Positions 358-51,125 of a stretch of DNA of 64,000 bases are shown here, in pieces. A program made the position numbers and the translations under genes. The notes beneath the pieces were generated by a model. It was not told the DNA's origin. It saw nothing but the letters and a program-made list of their open reading frames with translations, and made no database searches. Source of the DNA: an uncultured Bacteroidales bacterium (GTDB taxonomy: Bacteria > Bacteroidota > Bacteroidia > Bacteroidales > Bacteroidaceae); NCBI GenBank assembly GCA_902787575.1, contig CADAGX010000014.1, positions 46,298 to 110,297 of the forward strand. Direction: 5' to 3'. The first letter of the stretch is position 1. The number at the start of each line of letters is the position of its first letter.

Positions 358-1554
358 TTACTTCAGGCGTGCCAGCGTTTCCTTGATGCGACGCATGGCC
401 TCGACGATATTCTCGTCGCTCGTGGCGTAGCTCATACGGAAGCACTCGGGCGAGCCAAATGCATCACCGCCCACCGTAGCCACATGTCCCACCTCCAGAA
501 GGTACATGGCCAAGTCTGTGCTATTCTGTATCAGTCGGTCGCCATCGCGCTTGCCAAAGAAACTGCTGCACTTGGGGAAGAGATAGAAGGCACCCTGAGG
601 ATCGTTCACCTCAAGACCTGGAATTTCGCGTGCCAGCCGAACAATAAGGTTCTTGCGGCGTTCGAAAGCCTGACGCATCTCTTCGACACACTCTTGTGGT
701 CCGGCAAAGGCAGCCTCGGCTGCTTTCTGCGAAACGCTGCACGGGCCGCTGGTGTACTGGCCCTGCAGTTTATTGCAGCCCTTCACCACCCACTCGGGAG
801 CAGCAATGAAGCCGATACGCCAGCCCGTCATGGCATAAGCCTTGCTCACGCCGTTTATCAGCACAACGCGGTCTTTAATTTCGGGGAACTGCGCCATCGA
901 TGCATGTTCGCCCACGTAGTTTATGTGCTCGTAGATTTCGTCGGCCACTATCATCACGCGCTCGTGGCGCAGCAGCACGTCCTTCAACGCCTCCAACTCG
1001 GCGCGGCTATAGACGCTGCCCGTAGGGTTGCTGGGCGAGCAGAGGATAAGCGCACGGGTGCGCGGAGTAATGGCAGCCTCCAACTGCTGAGGCGTTATTT
1101 TGAAGTCCTGTTCGATGGTGGCCTCGACAAAGACCGGCGTTCCCTCGGCCAGCAGCACCATCTGCGGGTAGCTCACCCAGTAGGGCGCGGGGATGATAAC
1201 CTCGTCGCCAGCGTTCACCAGCGCCATCAGCGTGTTGCACACGCTCTGTTTTGCGCCGTTGGAGCAGAGAATCTGTGAGGGAGCGTACGTAAGCCCGTTC
1301 TCGCGCTGCAGTTTCTCCACGATGGCCTTACGAAGTTCGGGGTAGCCGGGCACGGGGCTGTAGCGGCTGTAATTTTCCTCCACGGCACGGATGGCAGCCT
1401 GCTTGATATGGTCGGGCGTATTGAAGTCGGGTTCGCCCACGCTCATGTTAATCACATCCACGCCTTGCGCTTTCAGTTCGCTGCTGCGCTGACTCATGGC
1501 CAGTGTAGCACTGGGTGCCAAGCGATTCAATCTGTCAGATAATTGCATTTCCAT
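358..1554 (-). CDS. Pyridoxal-phosphate aminotransferase, aspartate aminotransferase type
   Basis: A 398-residue fold-type I aminotransferase, the normal length for aspartate aminotransferases of subgroup Ib. It should move the amino group between aspartate and 2-oxoglutarate in the cytoplasm. Visible motifs: SVGEPDFNTPDH near residue 38, SPSNPTGS with the PLP-contacting Asn176, VADEIYEH with Asp205 and Tyr208, the Schiff-base lysine Lys238 in SKAYAMTGWR, and the substrate-carboxylate Arg in FRMSYA near the end. It is last in a leftward run after the permease and ribBA genes, 48 bp behind ribBA, so co-transcription is likely. ATG at 1548 is an equally possible start. Exact substrate range (aspartate, tyrosine, other) cannot be settled from sequence. 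Confidence 0.9.
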   Translation of the reverse strand: MEMQLSDRLNRLAPSATLAMSQRSSELKAQGVDVINMSVGEPDFNTPDHIKQAAIRAVEENYSRYSPVPGYPELRKAIVEKLQRENGLTYAPSQILCSNGAKQSVCNTLMALVNAGDEVIIPAPYWVSYPQMVLLAEGTPVFVEATIEQDFKITPQQLEAAITPRTRALILCSPSNPTGSVYSRAELEALKDVLLRHERVMIVADEIYEHINYVGEHASMAQFPEIKDRVVLINGVSKAYAMTGWRIGFIAAPEWVVKGCNKLQGQYTSGPCSVSQKAAEAAFAGPQECVEEMRQAFERRKNLIVRLAREIPGLEVNDPQGAFYLFPKCSSFFGKRDGDRLIQNSTDLAMYLLEVGHVATVGGDAFGSPECFRMSYATSDENIVEAMRRIKETLARLK

Positions 1555-1602
1555 ATTCTTATTTAGCCATTTAAAATGTTTTCGTTCTCCGTGAACTGTC
1601 GT

Positions 1603-2797
<1,195 letters not shown>

Positions 2798-2805
<8 letters not shown>

Positions 2806-4711
2806 GGATATGTTTCTTTTCTATTCGTTCTCTGATTTGTGTTCCTAATTTTTGTATCTGCTGCATGTCGTGCCAGAGCCGCAGGCGATAGCGCCAGATG
2901 CGGAAGAAGAAGAACAGCCCGAGCGGCAACAGTAAGCCCACGACCAGATTGTAGCGTGCATTGCGGAAGGGCCGCGTATGTGCGTCCGGCACCAGAATTG
3001 GCAAGTCGTTCAGGCGAGCCAATATCACTTTGTCTCGCGTATTGTGCAGCTCGTCCACAATGGCCTCGAGGCGGTCGTTGAGTTCTATCACATCCTTGTC
3101 CTCGGCGTAATGGAAGAAAAGCCGCAAGTAATTGGGCATCATGTAGAGGCGAGCCTTCTCTGAATACTGGGCACAGCTCTCCGTGAGATTCTGCAACTTG
3201 CCAACCAAAGCGGGATAGTCGGGGTCCTGGATGACGACTTCCTTCGGATTCAGGCGACGATGTGCCCTGAGGCCGAGCAAACGCTGGAAGAAGGTGCGAT
3301 AGCCTTCGATGTTGAAGACCACGCTGTCCTTGTTGGCGCGGTTGATGAGGAAAATGCCAATGGGCAGCAACACAGCCGAGCTGAGCCACACGCCGGAAAT
3401 GATATTCCACTGACCAGTCTTGGACATCTTCTCGCCGCCCACGTTTACTATGTAGTAGAAAATAAAAATCAGCACGCTCACCACCACTGGCACGCCCAGT
3501 CCTCCCTTGCGGATAATGGCGCCCAGCGGAGCCCCGATGAAGAAGAAAAGCAGGCACGCCAGCGAGAGGGTGAACTTGCGGTTGGCTTCTATCTTGTGTT
3601 TACGGAGCGTGAGGTTGTTGTCCGCACTTATCGTTCCACGGAAGTCATATTCTGACTGCATGAACTGCGCCTTGCGCAACGCGTTACGCCAGGCCGCCGT
3701 TCTCTTTTCTTCGGTGAGACGAGCATAAATGGAGTCGAGCGTCTCTCGGCTTTCGGCCGTTTCCTGCACAATGGCAGCCGAGTCTTGCAGCCCGCTGGGC
3801 AGTTCGCGCTCGAGGTACAAACGTCGAGCGTTGGAGGCCACAGCATGTCCGATGCTGTCTGTCATCACGGTCAGCGAGTCGATGCCCTGCACTATCTCGG
3901 GCAGTTTCTTGGTGGCTGCGTTTCCGGCGAAAAGGCTGGCGTCCATCATATTGAAGTTGCCGTCAAAGGGGATAAGGTCCACCTCGGTGATGAACGACTC
4001 GCGCATGTACGGCACGTTGGCCCGCAGCATACTGCCGCTCTGCGACTCCATGTTGCGAAAGCGCTCGCCGTTGAAGAGCGTCAGCTTGAGGTGCATCTTG
4101 TCGGCTGTGCTCTGCAGTCGCGCACTGTCGGCCAGCACAATCTGTGCGTCCTCGTAGCTGTTGGTGTTGTTGTAAATCATCACACCGTAGAGCATGCCCG
4201 TGTCTGGGTCCTTGTGCTCCACGAAAAGATTGTAGCCGGGAATCTCGTTGTAGAAGATACCTTCTGGAATTTCCAGTTCGGGCGACTTCTGCTTCATGCT
4301 CCAGATGAGCGTGGCCAGTTGCTTCGTGGCCTCGGGGCCAATCTTGTTCTGGAAATAGAAACTACCACCGCAGACCAGCAGAACGAAGCAGAAAACGGGC
4401 TGCAGGATGCGCACCAGCGGCACGCCGGCGGCCTTCATAGAGAGCAGTTCGAACTTCTCGCCCAAATTGCCAAACGAGATAAGGCTGGCCAGCAAGATGG
4501 CCAGCGGCAACGACATGGGCACGAGCGTGAGGCCGCTGTAGTAGAAAAACTTGCCCAACACGTCCCACGAGAGGCCCTTGCCGATAAGTTCCTCCACATA
4601 ACGCCACATAAACTGCATCATGAAGATGAAGAGGCAGATGAAGAACGTGCCTGCGAAAAGCAGCAGGTAGGACTTCAGGATGAAGGCATCGAGCTTGCGA
4701 ATAAGTCTCAT
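2798..4711 (-). CDS. LptF/LptG family permease (YjgP/YjgQ)
   Basis: An inner-membrane protein of the YjgP/YjgQ family, the permease partners of LptB that extract lipopolysaccharide for delivery to the outer membrane. The chosen start gives 637 residues, opening with [19 protein letters not shown]. Hydrophobic segments lie near residues 12-35, 58-75 and 100-120, then a large periplasmic domain, then a second membrane cluster near 370-460 and one more segment close to the C-terminus. The frame stays open upstream to 4804, but a TTTG-N19-TACCTTTG promoter at 4751-4781 would lie inside that extension, so the start at 4711 is preferred. The protein is longer than Escherichia coli LptF/G because of a soluble C-terminal stretch. 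First gene of the operon with ribBA and the aminotransferase. Confidence 0.85.
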
Positions 4712-4750
4712 GTGTGCGTGGCGCGCGCGTACGCGATTATATATTGTGTG

Positions 4751-4781
4751 CAAAGGTAGCACAAATGGCGCAAAGTACAAA
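4751..4781 (-). promoter_or_regulatory. Bacteroidetes-type promoter for the LptF/G-ribBA operon
   Basis: Read on the minus strand: TTTG, 19 bp, TACCTTTG. This fits the Bacteroidetes primary-sigma pattern (TTG at -33, TAnnTTTG at -7). It ends 40 bp before the preferred ATG at 4711. Confidence 0.7.
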
Positions 4782-4830
4782 GGCGGCGGCTCAAAGTTTG
4801 GCATCGAGATACAAAAAACGTCGTTTTTTC

Positions 4831-4861
4831 TTGTGTGAAACGAAAAATCTGTTTACCTTTG
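4831..4861 (+). promoter_or_regulatory. Bacteroidetes-type promoter for tRNA-Met
   Basis: TTG at 4831-4833, 20 bp, TACCTTTG at 4854-4861, ending 20 bp before the tRNA. Spacing and both elements match the -33/-7 pattern. Confidence 0.7.
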
Positions 4862-4880
4862 CAACCGCAAATCGCAGGAT

Positions 4881-4954
4881 GGCGGGATAGCTCAGCTGGT
4901 TAGAGCGTCGGATTCATAATCCGAAGGTCAAGGGTTCAAGTCCCTTTCCCGCTA
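4881..4954 (+). tRNA. tRNA-Met (CAT anticodon)
   Basis: A full cloverleaf can be folded: acceptor GGCGGGA with TCCCGCT (first pair G-U), D-arm GCTC/GAGC, anticodon stem TCGGA/TCCGA around loop TTCATAA, and T-arm AAGGG/CCCTT with loop TTCAAGT. The discriminator base is A and CCA is not encoded. Anticodon CAT could also be the lysidine-modified tRNA-Ile; the overall sequence looks like the elongator Met type. The first pair is not a C1-A72 mismatch, so it is not obviously an initiator. Confidence 0.93.
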
Positions 4955-4976
4955 CAGAGAGAAAAGAGAATGCAAT

Positions 4977-5012
4977 CCCCGGAAGTTTGGACCGTCCACT
5001 TTCGGGGTTTTT
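4977..5012 (+). terminator. Rho-independent terminator after tRNA-Met
   Basis: CCCCGGAAGT pairs with ACTTTCGGGG (one G-U), with an inner GGAC/GTCC stem, and is followed directly by TTTTT. The T-run starts a second perfect 10 bp inverted repeat (TTTTTCTGTT / AACAGAAAAA, 5008-5030) just upstream of the GH3 ribosome-binding region. Confidence 0.8.
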
Positions 5013-5056
5013 CTGTTAAAAACAGAAAAACGACACGCTAAGATAAGAAAAACGAC

Positions 5057-7276
5057 ATGAAGAAGCTACTCCTTTCTGCAGTGCTCTTGTGCGCAGCCAC
5101 ACTGAGCGCACAGACTCCCATCTATCTCGATGAGACAAAAAGCACAGAGACACGTATCTCGGACGCTATGCAACGCATGACGCTGGCCGAGAAGATTGCA
5201 CTCATCCACGCTCAGAGCAAGTTTTCGAGCCCCGGCGTGAAGCGTCTGGGCATACCGGATTTCTGGACCGACGACGGACCTCACGGAGTGCGACCCGACG
5301 TGCTCTGGGACGAGTGGCGTCAGGCCGGGCAGACCAACGACTCGTGTGTGGCTTTCCCTGCACTGACGTGTCTGACCGCCACATGGAATCCCGAACTGAG
5401 CCGCCTCTACGGCCATAGTCTGGGCGAGGAAGCGCTCTATCGGGGCAAGAACATGATTCTGGGTCCGGGTGTGAACATCTATCGCACTCCGCTGGGCGGC
5501 CGGAACTTTGAGTACATGGGCGAAGACCCGTACCTGAGCAGTCGCATGGTGGTGCCTTACGTGCAGGGAATGCAAGCGCTGGGAGTGGCCTCGTGTGTGA
5601 AACATTTCTGCCTGAACAACGACGAGGAATATCGCCATCAGGTGAACGTAGTAGTCAGCGACCGCGCCTTGCACGAGATTTACCTTCCCGCCTTCGAGGC
5701 CGCAGTAAAGGAGGGCCACGCGTGGGGCATCATGGGCGCCTACAACCTATACAAAGACCAGCATAACTGCCACAACGAGATTCTCCTGAACCAGATTTTG
5801 AAGCGCGACTGGGGTTTCGACGGTGTGGTGGTGAGCGACTGGGGCGGCGCACACGACACGGAACAGGCCGTGAAGAACGGGCTCGACATGGAGTTCGGCA
5901 CGTGGACGGACGGCCTGCAGATGGGTGCCACGAATGCCTACGACAATTACTTTATGGCTAAGGCGTATGCCGACGCCATCCTTGCCGGCAAGTACACCAC
6001 GAAGGAACTGGACGACAAGGTGCGTCGCGTGCTGCGGCTCTTCTTCCGCACCAGCATGAACCGCAATCGCTCGAATGGTTTCCTGTGCTCCGAAGCGCAC
6101 TACGAAGCCGCACAGAAGATTGCACACGAGGGCATCGTGCTGCTGCAGAACGAGGGCAACGTGCTGCCCATCGACGTGGAGAAGACGCACCGCATACTGG
6201 TAGTAGGCGAGAATGCCATAAAGATGATGACCGTGGGAGGCGGTTCGAGCAGCCTGAAGGCACAGCACGAAATCTCGCCGCTGCAGGGACTGAAGGAACG
6301 GCTGGCAGGCAAAGTAGAGATAGATTACGCTCGCGGATACGTGGGCAGCACACGCACAAGCTACAACGGAGTAAGCACGAAAGAGGACCTCAACGAGACA
6401 CGTTCGGCAGCCGAACTGCGAGCCGAAGCCGTGGAGAAGGCCAAGGGAGCGGACTACGTAATCCTCTTCGGCGGCCTCAACAAGAGTTCATACCAAGACA
6501 GTGAGGGGCACGACCGCAAGCAGATGGAACTGCCCTACGCGCAAGACAGCCTCATCGTGGCGCTGGCGCAGGCCAACAAGCGCCTGGTATATGTGAACAT
6601 CTCGGGTAACGCAGTATGTATGCCCTGGAAGAAGCAGGTGCCGGCCATCGTGCAGGGTTGGTTCATCGGCAGCGAAGCCGGGCATGCACTGGCCAGCGTG
6701 CTGGTGGGAGACGTGTGTCCCAGCGGCAAGTTGCCCTTCACATGGCCCAACAGCCTGCAGGAAGTGGGCGCGCACGCGCTGAACACCTACCCTGGAACGT
6801 GGCGAGAAGACAAGAAAATCATCGACGAGGAATACAAAGAGGGCATCTTCGTGGGCTACCGCTGGGCCGACCGACAGAAGACGAAGCCCTGCTTTGCTTT
6901 CGGGCACGGCCTGAGCTACACCACATTCCAGATTTCTAATCTCTGCGCCGACAGGAAGGAAACCACAGACGGCAACATCAACTTCACGGTGAACGTGCGC
7001 AACACGGGCAACAGGGAGGGAGCCGAAGTGGTGCAACTCTACATCAGCGACACGAAGTGCAGCGTGGAGCGACCCGTGAAGGAACTGAAGGCGTTCCGGA
7101 AAGTTTGGCTCAAACCCGGAGAAAGTCGCGACGTGACACTCAGCATCGACCGCCGCGCCCTCTCGTTCTGGGACGAGACGAAGAACGGATGGACGGCCGA
7201 GCCGGGCGAATTTGTAGCCCTGGTGGGCAACGCGTCCGACAACCTGACATGCAAGACCAAATTCACACTTAAATAA
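5057..7276 (+). CDS. Glycoside hydrolase family 3, beta-glucosidase-like, exported
   Basis: A 739-residue GH3 enzyme that should release glucose or xylose from the non-reducing end of beta-linked glycans. Residues 1-19 form a signal peptide ending ATLSAQ. The (beta/alpha)8 domain holds the KHF motif near 182 and the nucleophile Asp261 in VVVSDWGGAHD. The alpha/beta sandwich follows (about 360-600, with GEGxx-type LVVGENA and GGSS), then a fibronectin-III-like domain from about 640 to the end. There is no T9SS sorting tail, so a periplasmic location is likely. An SGNH hydrolase gene follows 8 bp downstream, suggesting an operon. No clear promoter lies between the tRNA terminator and this gene. 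Substrate is not determinable. Confidence 0.92.
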   Translation: MKKLLLSAVLLCAATLSAQTPIYLDETKSTETRISDAMQRMTLAEKIALIHAQSKFSSPGVKRLGIPDFWTDDGPHGVRPDVLWDEWRQAGQTNDSCVAFPALTCLTATWNPELSRLYGHSLGEEALYRGKNMILGPGVNIYRTPLGGRNFEYMGEDPYLSSRMVVPYVQGMQALGVASCVKHFCLNNDEEYRHQVNVVVSDRALHEIYLPAFEAAVKEGHAWGIMGAYNLYKDQHNCHNEILLNQILKRDWGFDGVVVSDWGGAHDTEQAVKNGLDMEFGTWTDGLQMGATNAYDNYFMAKAYADAILAGKYTTKELDDKVRRVLRLFFRTSMNRNRSNGFLCSEAHYEAAQKIAHEGIVLLQNEGNVLPIDVEKTHRILVVGENAIKMMTVGGGSSSLKAQHEISPLQGLKERLAGKVEIDYARGYVGSTRTSYNGVSTKEDLNETRSAAELRAEAVEKAKGADYVILFGGLNKSSYQDSEGHDRKQMELPYAQDSLIVALAQANKRLVYVNISGNAVCMPWKKQVPAIVQGWFIGSEAGHALASVLVGDVCPSGKLPFTWPNSLQEVGAHALNTYPGTWREDKKIIDEEYKEGIFVGYRWADRQKTKPCFAFGHGLSYTTFQISNLCADRKETTDGNINFTVNVRNTGNREGAEVVQLYISDTKCSVERPVKELKAFRKVWLKPGESRDVTLSIDRRALSFWDETKNGWTAEPGEFVALVGNASDNLTCKTKFTLK

Positions 7277-30400: not shown

Positions 30401-31086
30401 GGGTGGAACTCTTCAACACCACAGACGAGGACATCGACCTCGAGGGCTACTACCTCTCGGACGACGTAGACCAACCCACCAAATGCTGCATCACAAGCGG
30501 CGAGCAGCAGGTCAGCACCATACTGCCGGCCCACGGCTACCGCATCGTATGGTGCGACAAGTCGCCAGCCGTCAGCGAGCTGCACGCATCCTTCAAGTTG
30601 GCAAACGCCGACCAAGCTTACGTGGTACTGACGTCGCCCGACCGTTTGTGGGCCGACACGCTCATCTACTGCGCACACGACGGCACAGAGAGTTTCGGAC
30701 GGTTCCCCGACGGCACACGCCAGACCTATCGTTTCTCGCGCCCGACCATCGAGAAGTGGAACACGATGACCATGCTTTCCGAACGCTGGCAGGGCGAGCC
30801 TGTGACGGGTACGGGCGGCGATGGCATCAACGAGACGATGGCTTCGCGCGACGGTGGACTGAGCATACAGCCACGATCCTCGGCATTGCTCATACACAGC
30901 GAGGAAGCTCAGACGGCCACACTCAGCGTCTATACACTGGGCGGCTCGATGGTGATGCACACCGACGTGCCGATGCAGGATGGACGTGGCGAAGTGAACA
31001 TCTCGCTCCTAGCACGCGGCACCTACGTGGCCCGCATCACAGACAGCACAGGACACAGCGTGGCTACGAAGTTCAGCAGGAACTGA
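27499..31086 (+). CDS. Secreted lamin-tail/CotH protein with a T9SS tail
   Basis: 1195 residues from ATG 27499, which begins a signal peptide (LVTLLLAGLAQLSAKAQ). The frame opens at 27379, but the upstream part is basic and lies over a promoter element. Domain order: a lamin-tail-like domain (about 30-160: ICINEIMVGNYDQF, WVELFNRSG); a chitobiase-type C-terminal-like domain (near 205-240: TLRYTKDGSTPT); a CotH-like domain (near 270-560: KRNGAYSRRYTPYGFKVKAE, GLYRGTINMREPNN, ITYDIDHAFN); a jelly-roll with WNTSAYNDSRW and DDGAVVYVNG (near 740-880); and a second lamin-tail domain (near 940-1080). The end (LSVYTLGGSMVM ... GTYVARITDSTG) is a T9SS tail. Molecular function is unknown; adhesion or surface phosphorylation are possibilities. 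Confidence 0.83.
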   Translation: MRSCRILVTLLLAGLAQLSAKAQLTPTDMMADSICINEIMVGNYDQFVDPSWNYGAWVELFNRSGQEMDFKGCWVSDDPDSLMKYHITEPHVLPPHGFLNLWFDHHDKYCPSQLRMSFDEDGGTFYLCDPYGHLILQADYPPAILRCSYARRTDGDNEWGYTGTPTPAATNGEQTLCSEQLAPPEVSHESCVFPQRLTITVTIPEGCTLRYTKDGSTPTKTHGTITRIGRFNLTETTVMRFRLFCDGMLPSDVVTRTYVNEAFDIPIPIVSIATNSTNLYSAELGIFTRGTNGRAGLGETTPCNWNMDWDRPLNFEFITAEGKGVINQEVTVKRNGAYSRRYTPYGFKVKAEKLLGDNRLRYQFFPHKPHLRHKQMVFRSAGNDYNSRLRDPAVQHIALLSGLNLDIQGYEPVVHFINGLYRGTINMREPNNKNYVFANYGYDEEEIDFFEMDGDSGYVQMAGDRTAWERLYTLAQTASNADSYREICTLLDIDEFCNYMAVEFYLGNDDWPKNNFKCWRPRAENGRFRVITYDIDHAFNLTDVFKSFANKKNWTWNPLYNEFSEPIPRITGEVEIVTIFLNLLKNAEFCRHFIDAFCIVAGSVYDPNRAEAILRELCTRVEEIQLQPDNGYGRNVSPWNTGNTLIERFHGRHAEMYPILEAYKAFGLAGVTPQDVSLSANTEGARLFVNDQIVPTGKLIGRLYPPIHLRAEAPAGYRFSQWKLVGGKVTGTQQTLIPSRSEWSYYDKGSLDATATWNTSAYNDSRWSKGYGPLGYAKDNTQFSTILDYGGDTSNRRTTFYFRHHLTLDEEPTADDVFQLGFSVDDGAVVYVNGTEAFRTNMPTGTVKYATFSSGASSNNPDQGTTMLSPTLFKRGDNVIAVEVHNNNKTSSDIYWDASLTLRRSINTGTTMLGDTPEIDLPEGAEMELQALFVRDEQAAAALPPVVINEVAASGSMFVNEHFKKEDWVELFNTTDEDIDLEGYYLSDDVDQPTKCCITSGEQQVSTILPAHGYRIVWCDKSPAVSELHASFKLANADQAYVVLTSPDRLWADTLIYCAHDGTESFGRFPDGTRQTYRFSRPTIEKWNTMTMLSERWQGEPVTGTGGDGINETMASRDGGLSIQPRSSALLIHSEEAQTATLSVYTLGGSMVMHTDVPMQDGRGEVNISLLARGTYVARITDSTGHSVATKFSRN

Positions 31087-43530: not shown

Positions 43531-46500
43531 ATGCTTTTGGCCGTCATGCTACAGAATGCGGGCAGTGCGCTCGTCACGGACCCCACATGGGTGTTCCTGC
43601 TTGTGCTGGCAATGATACTGCTGGCACCCCTGCTGCTGCGCCGCCTACGTGTGCCACACATCATCGGTCTCATCATAGCTGGAATTCTGGTAGGTCAACA
43701 CGGATTTAACATACTGGAGCGCGATAGTTCGTTCGAGTTGTTTGGCAACGTTGGCATTTACTACATCATGTTCCTTGCCGGCCTGGAGTTGAATATGGGC
43801 AGCGTGCGCCAGTACGGCTGGCAGGGGCTGGCCTTCGGCCTGCTTACGTTTCTATTGCCATTCGGTGTGGGAATGCTGACGGGGCACTTCGTGCTCGGAC
43901 TTGGAACGGCTGCCAGCCTGCTTTTGAGCTGTATTCTTGCTTCCCACACGCTGGTGGCATACCCAATTGTGGGGCGTTACGGACTGGGGCGCCACCGCAC
44001 GGCCGTAATCAGTGTCGTAGCAACGGCGTTCGCCATATTCGCGGCACTGCTGACGCTGGCCTTGGTTGTGGGCAGTATGGACGGCGACAGCAATCCTACG
44101 AAATGGATTTTCTTCGCCCTCAAGTGTGCAGTCTACGGATTCATCGTGGCCTATATTTTCCCGCGCGTGGGCCGCTGGTTCCTGCGACGCTACGAAGAAA
44201 GCGTGGCGCAGTATATTTTCATCCTCGTCATGGTGTTCTTGAGTGCGGCACTGGCTGAGCTGGCCGGACTGGAGGGGCTGCTTGGTGCCTTTCTGGCAGG
44301 TCTGGCGCTGAATCGCCTGATTCCGCACACCAGCCCGCTGATGAGCCGCGTCGAATTTGTGGGCAACGCACTGTTCATCCCTTACTTCCTTATCGGAGTT
44401 GGCATGATAATAGACCTGCGAATCCTGCTTAGCGATTCGGGGACGATACGCGTCATTTTAGCACTTGTGTTGGCTGCCACCCTCTCAAAGTGGCTGGCGT
44501 CATGGCTGATGGCGCGGCTCGCACGCATGGGCGGAGAGAGCATGTGGCTGATGTTCGGCCTCACGAACGCACACGCCGCAGGCGCCTTGGCCATTGTGAT
44601 GGTTGGTACCAAGCCTGAGGTGAATCTCATCGACCCATCTTTGCTGAGCGGCACGGTAATGCTGATTCTGTTTTCGTGCATCATCAGCGGATTTGCCACC
44701 AGCTACGGCGCACGACAACTGGCGCTGAGCGACACCAGTCTGGAAGACAACCGCGGTTCGTATCACGGCAAGTGTCTGGTCACGTATTCGCAAGCCGACG
44801 CTGTGAATATGATGACGCAACTGGCCATCCTCATCCGCAACCCGTACATCCCTGACAGCCTGATGGGGCTGGCCGTAACGTATGATGGCGAGGAAGGGAA
44901 CGAGAAGCACCGCATGGCACAGCAGATGCTGGAGCAGGCTAAGACGATAGCCGCAGCGGCAGACGTGCAAATGGCCACGCTGAGCCGCATGAGCAGCAAT
45001 ATCTCGAACGGCATCCTGCACACGTTGCGCGAATATGATGCTGGCGAAGTGATTTTCTGCCTCACGGACCGCGAGACGGGCCTGCCCAAGACGGCGTTGG
45101 GAAACACCATAGAGGCCGTTTTGGCTACCACGCACCGCGAAGTGATGGCCGTGCGAGCCATTGTGCCGCCCGGCACGCTCCGCCAGGTACAAGTGGCAGT
45201 ACCCGCAAAGGCCGAGTACGAGGTAGGATTCTATAAGTGGCTGGAGCATCTCTGCCGAATCGGCGAGCAGACGGACTGCCGCATGGAGTTTCGGGCGCAT
45301 CCCGACACGATGAAATACATACAGGGTTACATGGGACAGAAACATCCGCACGTGCGAGCCACTTTCACACCCATGACCCGATGGGGTGACCTGAGCAAGC
45401 TCTATGGCAAGCTGGGAGAAGACCAGATGCTGGTGCTCGTGTCGGCACGCCCGGGCTTCATCAGCCATACTTCGGCACTCGACAACCTGACACAGATGGT
45501 GCACCAGCATTTCGCCGACACCAGTGTGATGCTGCTCTTCCCCGACCAATGGGGCGACCCACTGGAGAGCGTCTCGGTTTTCTCGCCCAATGGCATGGCC
45601 GTCACACGTCAGCAAAACTCTTTATTCGGCTGGCTGCGGCGCCGCTTCTTCGCTGCCGGCTGTCTGCTGCTGGCCGCCCTGCTGCCGCTGCAGGCACAAA
45701 GGGCAGACCTGAGTAAGATGTCTCCGCTTGTACGCCGTGCTGCCCTAAGCGCCTCGCCCACGCGGGCCGCCATAGAAGATGAGAGCGAGCCTGCAGTGTG
45801 CGCCTTAGTACGTACCACACGTGCTGGTGTACTGCCCGAGCATGGCTGTCGCAGTCTGGCCTCGTGGGGAGACATACACATCGCACGGATTCCACTCTGC
45901 CGACTGGCCGCCCTCTCGAAGCGACCTGAGGTGCTGCGCATCGAAGCACGCGAGCCGTGCCGTGCACAACTTGACACCGCACTCATCATCACCCGAGCCG
46001 CGGCACTGCATCAGCCTGCAGACGACAGGCTGCCGCTAATGGGAGAAAATGTGGTGATGGGCGTGATGGACATCGGCTTCGACTTGACGCATCCCACGTT
46101 CCGCATGGCCGACACGGGCCGCCTGCGCATCAGCGCCTTCTGGGACCAGCTCGATTCGCTACGCATGGGGGCTGACACGCTCTTCGTGGGCCGCCAGTTC
46201 ACCTCGCCCGAAAACATCCTTGCCAAAGCCCACGCCACTGACGGCTACAGCCAGTTCCACGGCACGCATACGGCAGGAATAGCATGCGGCAGCGGACACG
46301 GCGGCAACTTTGCAGGCGTGGCACCCAAGGCAGACATCTGTCTGGTGGCAAACGCCGTGTCAGAGGATCTGCCGCTCATCCCAGAGGAACGACGCTTTCT
46401 CTACACATCGGCCACCAACCTGCTTGGTTTCAAATTTATCTTTGATTACGCTGAGCGATGCGGCCGTCCGTGCGTAATTTCTTTCAGCGAGGGCGCCTAC

Positions 46501-47712
46501 CAAGACCTCTACGGAGACGACCAGTTGGCCTACGAAGTTCTCGACTCCATGGTGGGCAGCGGGCGTATCATCTGCGCTGCGGCCGGAAACCTGGGCCGCT
46601 ACCTCACTTACCTGCACAAGCCTGCCGGACAAACGTCGGCACGGAGCCTCCTGCAGTTCGAGTCGCAGAAGGCATACTACACGTTGCGCTCGTCGGACAA
46701 GACACAGGTGCGGCTCTCCTTCCTGACAGCACCCGAGCATGTACTGGCCGAGCGCGTTGTCACCACGGCCGAGATACTCGCCTGCCCCGACAGCCTGCTG
46801 CGCGACACAGTGCAGTTCGACGAGAAAGCATACGCACTGACTATGGCCGCCTACCCCACCTGCTACGATTCCACACGCTGGGCCACGGAATTGCTGCTCG
46901 AGAGCCTGGCCGGCGAAGAGAACCGCACGTACCGCGTCCTGCTCACACTGGAGGGACGCGAGCAGGAAGTGGAGGCCTTCGCCTCGGGTGGACATTTTGC
47001 CAACTCCAGCCTCTTCCCCGACTACCAGCAGGCCCAGTTCAGCCACAGCATACACACACCAGGCAGCGCGCCGAGCGTCATCTGCGTAGGCTCGACAGCC
47101 TACAGAACGGGCGTCCGCAACTTCGAAGGCCAGTGGCAACCGCTGGATGCCGGCTCCGGCGGACTACGTACCACCACCAGCAGCGTCGGGCCCACACTGA
47201 CGGGACTGGTGAAACCCGACGTGATGGCTCCCGGACAGAACGTCATCTCGGCCATGAGCAGCTTCTATCTCGAGAAAAACAAAGAGAGCTGGGACGCCAG
47301 CTACGATGTGGAACGATTTTTCTACGAGGGACGCGAATACTCGTGGAACGCACAATCGGGCACTTCCATGTCCTGTCCACTGGCAGCCGGCATCATTGCC
47401 CTATGGCTCCAAGCGTGTCCCACCCTGTCGCCACAGCAGGCAATGGAGACCATTGCAGCCACCAGCCGACAGCCCGAGGCCGCACTCAGCTACCCAAACA
47501 CGCAGTACGGCTACGGCGAGATTGACGCCGAAGCAGGACTGCACTACATTCTGCGCCACTTTGCAGGCATCGAGAATCCGTCGACAGGCGGCACGAAAAA
47601 AATGACAGCCATTTTCGATCTTTGCGGCAGGCGGATTTCCGAAAACCACGTGCGACACGGAATTTACGTCCTGCAGTTTTCAGACGGAAGCACCAAGAAA
47701 ATAAAATTCTGA
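43531..47712 (+). CDS. Cation/proton antiporter fused in frame to a secreted S8 subtilase with a T9SS tail
   Basis: One open frame of 1393 codons. Residues about 15-390 are a CPA2/KefB-like antiporter with 12 or so membrane helices (VPHIIGLIIAGILVG, FLAGLELNMG, LEGLLGAFLAGLALNR), then a cytoplasmic universal-stress-protein-like region (about 405-680). With no stop, a second protein follows. Met689 (ATG 45595) starts a perfect signal peptide (LRRRFFAAGCLLLAALLPLQAQ), then a subtilase with Asp847 (VMDIGFDLTHP), His910 (FHGTHTAG) and Ser1279 (SGTSMSCPLAAG), and an ending IFDLCGRRISEN ... GIYVLQF like a T9SS tail. It may be a true fusion, two proteins from one frame with internal start at 45595, or a recent loss of the antiporter stop codon. 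Confidence 0.85.
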   Translation: MLLAVMLQNAGSALVTDPTWVFLLVLAMILLAPLLLRRLRVPHIIGLIIAGILVGQHGFNILERDSSFELFGNVGIYYIMFLAGLELNMGSVRQYGWQGLAFGLLTFLLPFGVGMLTGHFVLGLGTAASLLLSCILASHTLVAYPIVGRYGLGRHRTAVISVVATAFAIFAALLTLALVVGSMDGDSNPTKWIFFALKCAVYGFIVAYIFPRVGRWFLRRYEESVAQYIFILVMVFLSAALAELAGLEGLLGAFLAGLALNRLIPHTSPLMSRVEFVGNALFIPYFLIGVGMIIDLRILLSDSGTIRVILALVLAATLSKWLASWLMARLARMGGESMWLMFGLTNAHAAGALAIVMVGTKPEVNLIDPSLLSGTVMLILFSCIISGFATSYGARQLALSDTSLEDNRGSYHGKCLVTYSQADAVNMMTQLAILIRNPYIPDSLMGLAVTYDGEEGNEKHRMAQQMLEQAKTIAAAADVQMATLSRMSSNISNGILHTLREYDAGEVIFCLTDRETGLPKTALGNTIEAVLATTHREVMAVRAIVPPGTLRQVQVAVPAKAEYEVGFYKWLEHLCRIGEQTDCRMEFRAHPDTMKYIQGYMGQKHPHVRATFTPMTRWGDLSKLYGKLGEDQMLVLVSARPGFISHTSALDNLTQMVHQHFADTSVMLLFPDQWGDPLESVSVFSPNGMAVTRQQNSLFGWLRRRFFAAGCLLLAALLPLQAQRADLSKMSPLVRRAALSASPTRAAIEDESEPAVCALVRTTRAGVLPEHGCRSLASWGDIHIARIPLCRLAALSKRPEVLRIEAREPCRAQLDTALIITRAAALHQPADDRLPLMGENVVMGVMDIGFDLTHPTFRMADTGRLRISAFWDQLDSLRMGADTLFVGRQFTSPENILAKAHATDGYSQFHGTHTAGIACGSGHGGNFAGVAPKADICLVANAVSEDLPLIPEERRFLYTSATNLLGFKFIFDYAERCGRPCVISFSEGAYQDLYGDDQLAYEVLDSMVGSGRIICAAAGNLGRYLTYLHKPAGQTSARSLLQFESQKAYYTLRSSDKTQVRLSFLTAPEHVLAERVVTTAEILACPDSLLRDTVQFDEKAYALTMAAYPTCYDSTRWATELLLESLAGEENRTYRVLLTLEGREQEVEAFASGGHFANSSLFPDYQQAQFSHSIHTPGSAPSVICVGSTAYRTGVRNFEGQWQPLDAGSGGLRTTTSSVGPTLTGLVKPDVMAPGQNVISAMSSFYLEKNKESWDASYDVERFFYEGREYSWNAQSGTSMSCPLAAGIIALWLQACPTLSPQQAMETIAATSRQPEAALSYPNTQYGYGEIDAEAGLHYILRHFAGIENPSTGGTKKMTAIFDLCGRRISENHVRHGIYVLQFSDGSTKKIKF
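45595..47712 (+). CDS. Possible separate subtilase product from an internal start
   Basis: Alternative reading of the second half of the frame above: 705 residues from ATG 45595, with its own basic N-region and signal peptide, all three catalytic residues and a T9SS-type tail. Such a protease would be exported through Sec and then the T9SS. The His-Ser distance (369 residues) is much longer than in subtilisin, showing a large inserted domain. No clear ribosome-binding site or promoter is seen before 45595, since this region codes for the antiporter C-terminus, so the internal start is plausible but unproven. Confidence 0.45.
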   Translation: MAVTRQQNSLFGWLRRRFFAAGCLLLAALLPLQAQRADLSKMSPLVRRAALSASPTRAAIEDESEPAVCALVRTTRAGVLPEHGCRSLASWGDIHIARIPLCRLAALSKRPEVLRIEAREPCRAQLDTALIITRAAALHQPADDRLPLMGENVVMGVMDIGFDLTHPTFRMADTGRLRISAFWDQLDSLRMGADTLFVGRQFTSPENILAKAHATDGYSQFHGTHTAGIACGSGHGGNFAGVAPKADICLVANAVSEDLPLIPEERRFLYTSATNLLGFKFIFDYAERCGRPCVISFSEGAYQDLYGDDQLAYEVLDSMVGSGRIICAAAGNLGRYLTYLHKPAGQTSARSLLQFESQKAYYTLRSSDKTQVRLSFLTAPEHVLAERVVTTAEILACPDSLLRDTVQFDEKAYALTMAAYPTCYDSTRWATELLLESLAGEENRTYRVLLTLEGREQEVEAFASGGHFANSSLFPDYQQAQFSHSIHTPGSAPSVICVGSTAYRTGVRNFEGQWQPLDAGSGGLRTTTSSVGPTLTGLVKPDVMAPGQNVISAMSSFYLEKNKESWDASYDVERFFYEGREYSWNAQSGTSMSCPLAAGIIALWLQACPTLSPQQAMETIAATSRQPEAALSYPNTQYGYGEIDAEAGLHYILRHFAGIENPSTGGTKKMTAIFDLCGRRISENHVRHGIYVLQFSDGSTKKIKF

Positions 47713-47737: not shown

Positions 47738-50464
47738 ATGACTAAGTTTAAGACACTCCTCGCATTGTTGCTGCTCACGCCAAGTTTGACGGCAATGGCC
47801 ATCCGCACCACAGCACTGAAGTGCGAAATGCTCTCCAACCCCTGCGGAATCAACACCACACAGCCCAACCTCAGCTGGCAGATACCCGTCGATTACAACG
47901 GCATCGCGCAGAAAGCCTACGCCATTTTGGCCGCCACGACACCCGAGAAACTCAACGAGCAAGATGCCGACCTGTGGAACACCGGACGCATCGAGTCGGG
48001 GCAATCCGTCTGGGTGAAATACGGTGGCAAGGCACTCGCCTCGCGCAGCGTCGTGTACTGGAAAGTGAAAGTCTGGGACGAGGCAGGCAAGGAGTCCGGC
48101 TGGAGCCAGACGGCACGCTTCACGGTGGGACTGCTCAAAAGCACCGACTGGAGCGCCCGCTACATCGGAATGGAACGCGCCGACAAAGCCGAATTGCCAC
48201 AACTGTGGCAGACATTCCAGTGCCCGGCCGACAAACCGACGGCTTTCCTGCACATCAGCACGCTGGGCTACCACGAAATCTACATCAACGGCCGCCGAGT
48301 GGGCAACGATGTGCTCACGCCTTCCGTGGTTGTCTTCCACAAACGCAGTCCCGCCATGTGCTATGATGTCAGCGACTTGCTGCAACAGGGAGAAAACGAC
48401 ATCGTAATCTGGCTCGGCAAAGGTTTCTACGACGGAAAGTGCTGGGGCGCAGTAATCAACGGGCCTTATGCAATGGCACAAGTGGAGATGAAAGACGGAA
48501 ACGGCTGGCGCACCCTCGTCGGAACCGACAAGACGTGGCGCACGCGCCGCAGCGGATATTATCATCCCGGCTGCTGGGCAGACAACGCCTTTGACGGCGA
48601 AGTGGTGAAAGCAGCCGAGCTATTGCCCGACCTGACACGTGCCTCGCTCGAGACTGCAGAATGGAAGCCAGCTTTCGAAGCCGAAATTCCCGAACGCCTC
48701 ATCACGCCCATGATGTGTGAGCCGAACCGAATCTTCGACGCCCTGCGGCCCAAGGACATCCGCCAGTTCGCACCCGGCGTGTGGCTCGTAGATATGGGAC
48801 GGAGCGTAGTGGGATGGACGAAAGTGCGCTTCAGTCAGCTGCGTGCCGGCCAAGCCATCAACATCAGCTACTGCGACATGCTGGGTATGAACGGCGACTT
48901 CGAATACGGCGTGTTCACCGACCGATACATTGCACGTGGCAGCGACGAAGAAACATTCGAGAACAAATTTAACTACCACGCCTACCGCTACATCAAGCTC
49001 AGCGGACTCGACCGCGCACCCAGTTACGACGACATCACCTCCTACCTTATCCACACAGGCTACGACGTACGCTCTTCCTTCGTGTGCAATGACGAGGAGA
49101 TAAACGCCATACACAACATGATACACTACACCTTCCAGTGTATCACACAGAGCGGCTACATGGTCGACTGCCCGCACCTCGAGCGCGGCGGGTACGGTGG
49201 CGACGGCAACTCGTCCACGCTGTCCGCCCAGCTGATGTACGACCTCTATCCGCTCTACACCAACTGGCTGCAGGCTTACGGCGACGAACAGGCAGACAAC
49301 GGAGACCTGCCGCATACTGCACCTTCGTATAAACAATGTGGCGGAGGCCCCTATTGGCTCGCCTTCATCGCCAACGCCCCGTGGCAAACTTATCTGCAGT
49401 ACGGCAACAAGGAATTTCTAGAACGTTACTATCCGCATATGAAGCGTTTCGCCGCCTTTGCCGAGCAATATATGCCAGACGGCATGCTCAACATCAAAAA
49501 TCGCTGGCCCAACAACCGACTCCACAACTGGTTCCTTGGCGACTGGGCGCTGCCAAACGAAGAGCACCAGCACGACGAAGAAAGTATCGACGTGGTGAAT
49601 TCTTGCACAATGAGCTGGGTTTACCAGATAATGGCCAAGACAGCTGCACTGCTGGGCAAGGCAGACGAGCAGGAGACCTATCAGAAGAAGCACGACGCCA
49701 TCAACCAGCGCATCTACGAGACGCTCTATCATCCCAAACAGAAGGTGTATGCCAACGGCTTGCAGCTCGATATGGCATTTCCGCTCCTCGTAGGCGCAAC
49801 ACCAAACGAGAAAGCCGCCAGTCGTGCCAATCAGACTTTACGCGACATTACTTACAACCGATATGACGGCCATCTCCACACAGGTCTCGTGGGCGTGCCC
49901 ATCCTTACGCAGTGGCTCACGCAAGCTGGCGAAGGTCAGCTGATGTACGACATGCTGAAGAAACGCAGCTTCCCGGGTTACCTTTATATGATAGAGAACG
50001 GCGCAACCACCACTTGGGAGCATTGGAACGCCACACGCAGCCGCATACATAACTGCTACAACGGCATCGGCTCGTGGTTCTATCAGGCACTGGCCGGAAT
50101 AGTGAGCGACGAAGACGCACCGGGATACAAACATTTCTTCCTGCGGCCGCAGATACCCGACGGCATCCGCTTTGTGCGCTGCTGCAAGCCCACGCCATAC
50201 GGCGAAATCCTTGTGGACTGGACGCTGTCGGAGCACACGATGGACCTGAAACTGACCGTGCCGGCTGGCACAACAGCCACGCTGGAGATGCCCTTCGAGG
50301 CAAAAAGCGTGGAGATCGCTTCCAAACGCCCGCCGCGTCGCGGACTTGTGTACAGCGATAAGGAGAAAACCACCGACACAGGCTGGCGCAACGAAGCACA
50401 CGACCCCAAGCAACCGCTCCAGCTCACAAGCGGCAAGCACCGCATCGTTTACCATCTGAAATGA
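47738..50464 (+). CDS. Alpha-L-rhamnosidase (glycoside hydrolase family 78)
   Basis: 908 residues with a signal peptide ([15 protein letters not shown]). The layout is that of bacterial GH78: N-terminal beta domains with [33 protein letters not shown] and an [17 protein letters not shown] jelly-roll (to about 300), an (alpha/alpha)6 barrel with the conserved [14 protein letters not shown] carrying the acidic catalytic residues, and a C-terminal beta-sandwich. It should remove terminal rhamnose from plant pectin or glycosides. There is no T9SS tail. It begins 26 bp after the subtilase stop and is followed closely by the LolD-like gene. Confidence 0.9.
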
Positions 50465-50471
50465 GTTAAGC

Positions 50472-51125
50472 ATGATACAACTTCGCGACATCACCAAAAG
50501 TTTCGGCGCGCTGCAAGTATTGCGAGGCATTGACCTCGGCATCAGCAAAGGCGAAGTAGTCTCCATTGTCGGCCCAAGCGGCGCCGGAAAAACTACGTTA
50601 CTGCAGATAATGGGCACACTCGACAGCCCGACCAGTGGCCGTGTCATCATCAACGGGCAAGATGTAAGCCAACTGGGGCAGCGCCGGCTGGCGCATTTCC
50701 GCAACCAGCACATCGGTTTCGTCTTTCAGTTCCACCAGTTGCTGCCCGAGTTTACCGCACTGGAGAACGTGATGATTCCGGCCTTCATAGGTGGTTCCGG
50801 ACGAAAGGAAGCACGCGAGCGAGCACTCGAACTGCTGCAATTCATGGGATTACAGGAGAGAGCCGACCATAAGCCAAGCGAACTCTCGGGCGGCGAGAAG
50901 CAGCGAGTGGCAGTGGCACGTGCACTGGTGAACAAACCGGACGTGGTAATGGCCGACGAGCCAAGCGGCAGCCTCGACAGCCAGAACAAGGAAGAACTCC
51001 ACCGCCTGTTCTTTGACCTGCGCGACAGGTACGGACAAACTTTTGTCATTGTCACACACGACGAGACACTGGCTGCCATGACGGACCGCACCATTCACAT
51101 GATAGACGGACGGCTGAAAGATTAA
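50472..51125 (+). CDS. ABC transporter ATPase, LolD/MacB type
   Basis: 217 residues, a lone nucleotide-binding subunit. Walker [10 protein letters not shown], signature [15 protein letters not shown], Walker [13 protein letters not shown] and the switch His in VTHDE are all intact. The sequence pattern ([20 protein letters not shown]) is typical of LolD, which powers release of lipoproteins from the inner membrane, and of its relatives MacB/FtsE. No permease gene is adjacent, so the partner is elsewhere. It starts 8 bp after the GH78 gene, 12 bp before the cvfB-like gene. Confidence 0.88.

Follow-up and report, generated by a model that had tools for sequence, protein, structure and literature searches.

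To our knowledge, few bacterial polyproteins are divided at an internal signal peptide, cytochrome b/c1 being an example. In FbcH, the cytochrome b/c1 polyprotein of Bradyrhizobium, one chain holds both a membrane protein and an exported one, which are separated at an internal signal peptide. KefC, a CPA2 antiporter, has a nucleotide-binding domain at its C-terminus. Among the open-access matches listed, no paper on bacterial polyproteins with internal signal peptides, FbcH included, was found. Among the clostridial Csp proteases, CspBA is itself a fused protein that is cut apart, and the prodomain of CspB remains bound to the protease and inhibits it, as described in portions of PMC3567191. 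Furthermore, Ala↓Gln after a hydrophobic core (the arrow marks a predicted cleavage site) is the pattern of the Bacteroidetes Q-rule for signal peptidase I, as set out in portions of PMC5837995 and PMC10653852.

The window, by which we mean the whole stretch of 64,000 nucleotides of an uncultured Bacteroidales bacterium that was analyzed, contains a single frame of 1393 codons (43531..47712, plus strand) with an ATG start and, according to the ORF listing of the window, no internal stop. In this ORF, a CPA2/KefC-like antiporter and its C-terminal domain come first, then a segment that resembles a signal peptide, and last an S8 subtilase that has its triad (Table 1). The original prediction, made from the letters of the sequence, that an antiporter and a subtilase share one frame of this length was borne out by the ORF listing and by Pfam. 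We consider it likely, with a probability of about 0.7, that the ORF encodes a genuine, conserved polyprotein in which the antiporter acts as the vehicle for the protease, and a cut by signal peptidase I behind residue 722 frees a Csp-like subtilase into the periplasm. The two halves of FbcH, as we know it, belong to one complex, whereas here an ion antiporter is joined to a protease without a known relation to it. If the polyprotein reading is correct, the locus would make it possible to test in nature whether a signal peptide behind a multi-spanning protein undergoes export and cleavage and whether the Q-rule applies there. It would also mean that a gene annotation named after one half conceals the other half. 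No description of an antiporter-protease fusion was found in the open-access literature, most subscription papers lying outside that scope.

Table 1. Features of the fused ORF and of the genes downstream of it (positions in the window; residues are those of the fused protein)
Feature	Position	Strand	Evidence or remark
Entire fused ORF	43531..47712	+	1393 aa plus stop; single frame shared by 37 other genomes of the genus
Na_H_Exchanger transmembrane domain (CPA2, KefC/NapA-like), residues 27-390	43609..44700	+	Pfam, PDB relatives, hydropathy
Antiporter C-terminal domain, residues 400-685, weakly Usp-like, presumed cytosolic	44728..45585	+	Aligned in fused and single antiporters
Basic tail/linker, residues 686-705, proposed n-region of the signal peptide	45586..45645	+	pN/pS 0.24, close to that of the antiporter
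In-frame ATG, codon 689, proposed internal start	45595..45597	+	Thr in 36/38 fused rows
Hydrophobic core and c-region of the putative internal signal peptide, residues 706-722, ending Leu-Gln-Ala	45646..45696	+	Junction rows, hydropathy
Gln723, N-terminus predicted to arise through signal peptidase I (Q-rule)	45697..45699	+	Ala↓Gln in 38/38
Subtilase prodomain, about residues 755-805	45793..45945	+	AlphaFold model, block pLDDT 88-92; Csp fold matches
Catalytic Asp847	46069..46071	+	38/38
Catalytic His910	46258..46260	+	38/38
Oxyanion-hole Asn1020	46588..46590	+	38/38
Insert rich in strands, approximately residues 1027-1157, lying between Asn1020 and Ser1279 (compared to the Csp jelly roll)	46609..47001	+	Model and Foldseek
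Catalytic Ser1279 (GTSMS)	47365..47367	+	38/38
Short C-terminal tail (FDLCGRR...GIYV...KKIKF), three modelled strands	47602..47709	+	TIGR04183: no match
Downstream gene, presumably alpha-L-rhamnosidase-like	47738..50464	+	Between fusion and lolD
Presumed lolD-like ABC ATPase	50472..51125	+	Usual downstream neighbor of the antiporter

The single frame is conserved within the genus. When relatives were searched for the same fusion, as the original prediction had suggested, antiporter and subtilase were found in one frame in at least 38 of the 139 genomes of the genus, the window and 37 further genomes; the search used the antiporter end plus the subtilase, and the frames were then read in 60 fetched loci. 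In the 37 further genomes the frames have 1378-1649 codons and the subtilase is 41-60% identical to that of the window, and recurrence at such divergence excludes chance. The fusion is real and old, and the sequences indicate selection on its product. The genus also contains both single antiporters and stand-alone subtilases. In a family-wide search of 399 genomes, this subtilase was found at E values up to 1e-60 in 40, and in the 29 genomes outside the genus that have it all frames are of 479-815 codons and none (0/29) is fused. With the whole protein as the query, matches at E up to 1e-30 were obtained in 374 of the 399 family genomes, and all full-length fused ones among the matches listed were from the genus. 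In two out-of-genus genomes, G220 and G386, the alignment continues past the antiporter end only via several stops. As for the composition of the set, three of the records that carry the fusion come from metagenome assemblies, the fused locus L084 is cut at the 5' contig end, L032/L033/L034 are apparently the same records as L081/L083/L084 and were counted once, and L092/L096, L095/L097, and L112/L114 are near-identical fused rows. In L108 (minus strand, frame 1372-6319), approximately 200 more codons are open upstream of the antiporter, which gives 1649 codons in total.

The first half of the protein matched Na_H_Exchanger (PF00999) with E 4e-48 and 164.6 bits against a cut-off of 26.2, hydropathy analysis placed 13 hydrophobic segments before residue 400, and its nearest solved relatives by sequence are KefC, the best PDB match, and a Na+/H+ antiporter. 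It shares the Na_H_Exchanger domain with CPA2 antiporters such as KefC and NapA, and it differs from KefC in having a C-terminal domain that is weakly Usp-like and is followed by the subtilase. The NCBIfam model TIGR00932 gave 111.8 bits, below its cut-off of 238.3, and therefore the names KefB, which the original prediction had used, and KefC apply by resemblance only. The stress-protein-like domain proposed behind it survives as a weak resemblance, since Usp (PF00582) reached E 0.13 and 13.3 bits in the window protein, under its cut-off of 24. No Usp match was obtained in either of the two fused relatives scanned, and one single antiporter from outside the genus gave E 2e-4, also under the cut-off. 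A structure model of the antiporter half, made from 4 sequences, had a mean pLDDT of 38.3 and was too poor for use.

The second half matched Peptidase_S8 (PF00082) with E 1.2e-29 and 104 bits against a cut-off of 21.8. Asp847, His910, and Ser1279, where the original prediction had placed the catalytic residues, and the oxyanion Asn1020 are each kept in 38/38 fused rows, as in S8 subtilases. By sequence, the nearest solved relatives of this half are germination proteases, CspB among them. Residues 385-1393 were modelled (mean pLDDT 62.9) with a prodomain of high confidence and a subtilase core that bears a strand-rich insert, and the closest solved folds are those of the clostridial Csp proteins: the best 11 Foldseek matches were CspA, CspB, and CspC, with TM-scores of 0.70-0.73 by target and identities of 17-20%. 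The likeness of the insert to the Csp jelly roll is tentative, being taken from this whole-fold match. The fused state of CspBA is a further point of likeness. In contrast to the Csp proteins, the subtilase described here is joined to an antiporter through a signal peptide, belongs to a different phylum, and shares only 17-20% identity with them in the best 11 fold matches. Furthermore, the NCBIfam CspBA model gave 55.6 bits against a cut-off of 1250, and the term Csp-like is therefore meant only as a claim about how the protein may work. Because the CspB prodomain stays bound and inhibitory, it is possible, by analogy, that the released subtilase is latent.

The C-terminal end had been read as a T9SS-like tail and the protease as T9SS cargo, which our results do not uphold. 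The tail is short and strand-rich, and TIGR04183 (T9SS type A sorting domain) does not match it; the fused subtilase was absent among the 20 matches of this model in its own genome at E up to 1, the window tail alone matched 0 families, and the two fused tails tested gave no match to the type A model. Three stand-alone subtilase tails tested matched the same model weakly, under the cut-off. T9SS machinery is present in the genome, as judged from SprA, the T9SS gene searched (SprA_N, E 1.1e-219). Elsewhere in the window, the T9SS type A model has a sorting-domain match over its cut-off at 30883-31074, within an open frame of 1238 codons. The stand-alone S8 subtilases L035-L050, from other genomes, resemble the fused subtilase in sequence (39-45% identity), in a signal peptide that is visible in most of them, and in a similar mature start, and they differ from it in being separate genes.

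At the junction, the antiporter of all 38 fused rows ends in a basic tail, with the consensus ...PNGTAVQRQPRSLGGLIRR.FF in the larger clade, and a hydrophobic core follows. The linker, residues 686-705, resembles the natural C-terminus of single antiporters. When the rows were inspected by eye, the core was closed by Ala↓Gln in 38/38, and the mature sequence began with Gln-Arg-Pro in 24/38; the same mature start was found in 8/16 of the stand-alone relatives L035-L050 (15 of the 16 visible). A stricter signal-site pattern was found at 35/38 junctions, L086-L088 being those that fail. A -3/-1/+1 pattern with a wider set of residues at -3 was found at 37/38 junctions as compared with 82/531 other hydrophobic segments of the same antiporters, and because the motif also occurs after these other segments, its presence does not prove cleavage. 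The junction combines the features of a Q-rule substrate, namely a basic n-region, a hydrophobic core, a small residue at -1, and Gln at +1. Pooled pairwise pN/pS, whose values are descriptive only with synonymous sites near saturation, was 0.24 in the tail and 0.26 in the first mature residues, both of which are constrained, as compared with 0.63 in the core. The core thus varies in sequence, yet its hydrophobicity and its frame are kept, and the junction frame is open in 38/38 rows with all length changes in frame. A helix was modelled at residues 698-714 with low confidence, and the signal core is long and irregular in L108 and some others. A promoter and terminator scan detected nothing near the junction.

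The genome carries Peptidase_S26 matches and a glutaminyl-cyclase homolog that is close to solved glutamine cyclotransferases. In the Ala↓Gln behind a hydrophobic core, and in the presence of signal peptidase I and glutaminyl-cyclase homologs in the genome, the locus resembles the Q-rule substrates of signal peptidase I treated in portions of PMC5837995 and PMC10653852. It differs from those substrates in that the signal peptide is internal, approximately 700 residues into the chain and after a multi-spanning antiporter. For pyroglutamate formation, inner-membrane proteins are referred to as not yet tested in the portion of PMC5837995 that deals with it.

Translation of antiporter and subtilase as one chain is well supported by the sequence. 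The Arg-rich cytosolic tail would then provide the n-region for a signal peptide inside the chain, because the hydrophobic core and the Ala↓Gln site come after it, and Sec would move the subtilase to the periplasmic side. A cut by signal peptidase I after Ala722 would leave the antiporter with one extra transmembrane segment, and Gln723, then the N-terminus of the freed subtilase, would probably be cyclized to pyroglutamate, as the Q-rule suggests. Judging from its family, the Csp-like S8 protease would presumably be activated by self-cleavage of the prodomain. Fixed 1:1 synthesis and delivery through the membrane insertion of the antiporter might be the gain from such an arrangement; alternatively, and just as speculatively, the protease may merely have been locked in once it had lost its own start codon. 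Among the options of the original prediction was a true fusion whose protease might be released by cleavage at the internal AQ site, and it is this option that we favor, with 38 fused genomes and Ala↓Gln in each of the 38.

A recent loss of the antiporter stop codon in this genome, or an assembly or sequencing error, has next to no probability. Single antiporters and stand-alone subtilases do coexist in the genus, in line with such an event, but the fused frame is present in 37 other genomes and the 38 fused subtilases form one clade (100/99), and both explanations were rejected because many diverged genomes have the frame in common. The case that had been named as evidence against the fusion, a relative in which antiporter and subtilase are separated at the same place, was not found in 16 single-antiporter loci (14 from the genus and 2 from outside) and in 7 more with flanks of approximately 1.5 kb. 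Internal initiation, in which two proteins would be made from one mRNA with the subtilase start in the same frame inside the 3' end of the antiporter, is improbable as a general explanation. The window has an ATG at codon 689, and before the core an ATG is found in 9/38 rows and some ATG, GTG, or TTG in 31/38; however, column by column, a start position before the core is conserved nowhere, 29/38 rows lack an ATG in the stretch from the antiporter end to the core, and 7/38 have none of ATG, GTG, and TTG there. The open junction frame in every row, with its in-frame length changes, argues against internal initiation as well. As a general mechanism, the start proposed at 45595 was rejected because codon 689 is Thr in all but two of the rows. 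One ATG is invariant (38/38) and lies a few residues past the site of predicted cleavage, so that a protein begun there would lack a signal peptide. In individual species, the start-like codons of 31/38 rows may permit an internal start. It is also unlikely, in our judgment, that the junction stays uncleaved as a permanent extra transmembrane helix, by which the antiporter would hold the subtilase on the periplasmic face under the control of its ion or pH state. Such a tether would suit the positively flanked hydrophobic segment and the conservation of the fused chain in 38 genomes, and it would suit a prodomain that stays bound and inhibits, as in the fold relative CspB (in the cited portions of PMC3567191). 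However, Ala↓Gln and a mature start of the secreted type are kept and the sequence of the core is not, as in a cleavable signal peptide, and a Q-rule residue would be needless for a permanent anchor.

With the cleaved polyprotein as the preferred reading, the benefit of the linkage can be considered separately. Tentatively, the antiporter may be a delivery half whose insertion obligatorily exports the Csp-like protease through a leader cut by signal peptidase I, with 1:1 coupling of the two, and the module may have been fused again to a glycosyltransferase in a like manner. It is also conceivable, at somewhat less than even odds, that the linkage is neutral, the protease having landed between the antiporter and lolD without a start of its own and without any functional tie, which would be compatible with a polyprotein. 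Consistent with neutral linkage, members of the same subtilase family overlap an upstream gene or are fused to a glycosyltransferase, and seven genomes with the subtilase elsewhere carry a single antiporter. The triad in 38/38 rows and the constrained linker, on the other hand, show selection on the product, though not on the linkage itself. The fusion to a glycosyltransferase was seen in one assembly of one genome, G119, at locus L117 (2462-5809, minus strand), where the subtilase is joined in frame to a GT2 glycosyltransferase (Pfam) through a signal-peptide-like hydrophobic segment ending in Ala-Ser-Cys↓Gln; G119 has a single antiporter elsewhere. An in-frame TTG lies ahead of the hydrophobic segment, and internal initiation is therefore possible at L117. 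In L120 (at about 5973), L121, and L122, the start of a stand-alone subtilase overlaps the stop of the upstream gene as ATGA, which makes overlap with an upstream gene a likely route to fusion. The upstream neighbors in L120-L122 are glycosyltransferase-like by eye only.

The phylogenetic trees suggest more than one possible history. In the antiporter trees, the fused rows fall into two clades, one of 6 that includes the window and one of 32, with single antiporters between them, and well-supported branches force two changes. An antiporter tree in which all fused rows were held together was not rejected (p-AU 0.27). In the subtilase tree, from which L123 (cut at a contig end), L124 (N stretches), L044, L045, and L048 were left out, all 38 fused rows form the single clade mentioned above, divided into the same 6 and 32. 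The lolD tree needed four changes and was poorly resolved. One fusion with later losses appears to be favored by these trees, and two parallel fusions would be possible.

In the 35 fused loci that were compared, the fused ORF is followed, on its own strand and at a spacing of -4 to 818 bases, by a gene for an ATPase that we take to be lolD-like, and in 15/35 the start of lolD overlaps the fused ORF by 4 bases (ATGA type). In the window, L081, and L082, another gene precedes lolD, and the one in the window, which we assume to be alpha-L-rhamnosidase-like, has a similar counterpart in the other two. Among the 16 single-antiporter loci, 8 have lolD directly behind the antiporter on the same strand within 50 bases, with the 4-base overlap in 5, and one has it 706 bases away; lolD was also close behind the antiporter in 7/7 further single-antiporter genomes. 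Because antiporter and lolD are adjacent in loci without the fusion, the subtilase sits between two usual neighbors. No subtilase was found near the single antiporters in the 16 loci (mostly 4-5 kb downstream, approximately 0.8 kb in L133) or in the 7 others, and in three of the 16, L129, L134, and L137, no lolD was found within the stretch fetched. In the remaining four of the 16 (L130, L131, L132, and L136), the lolD-like gene lies tail to tail with the antiporter.
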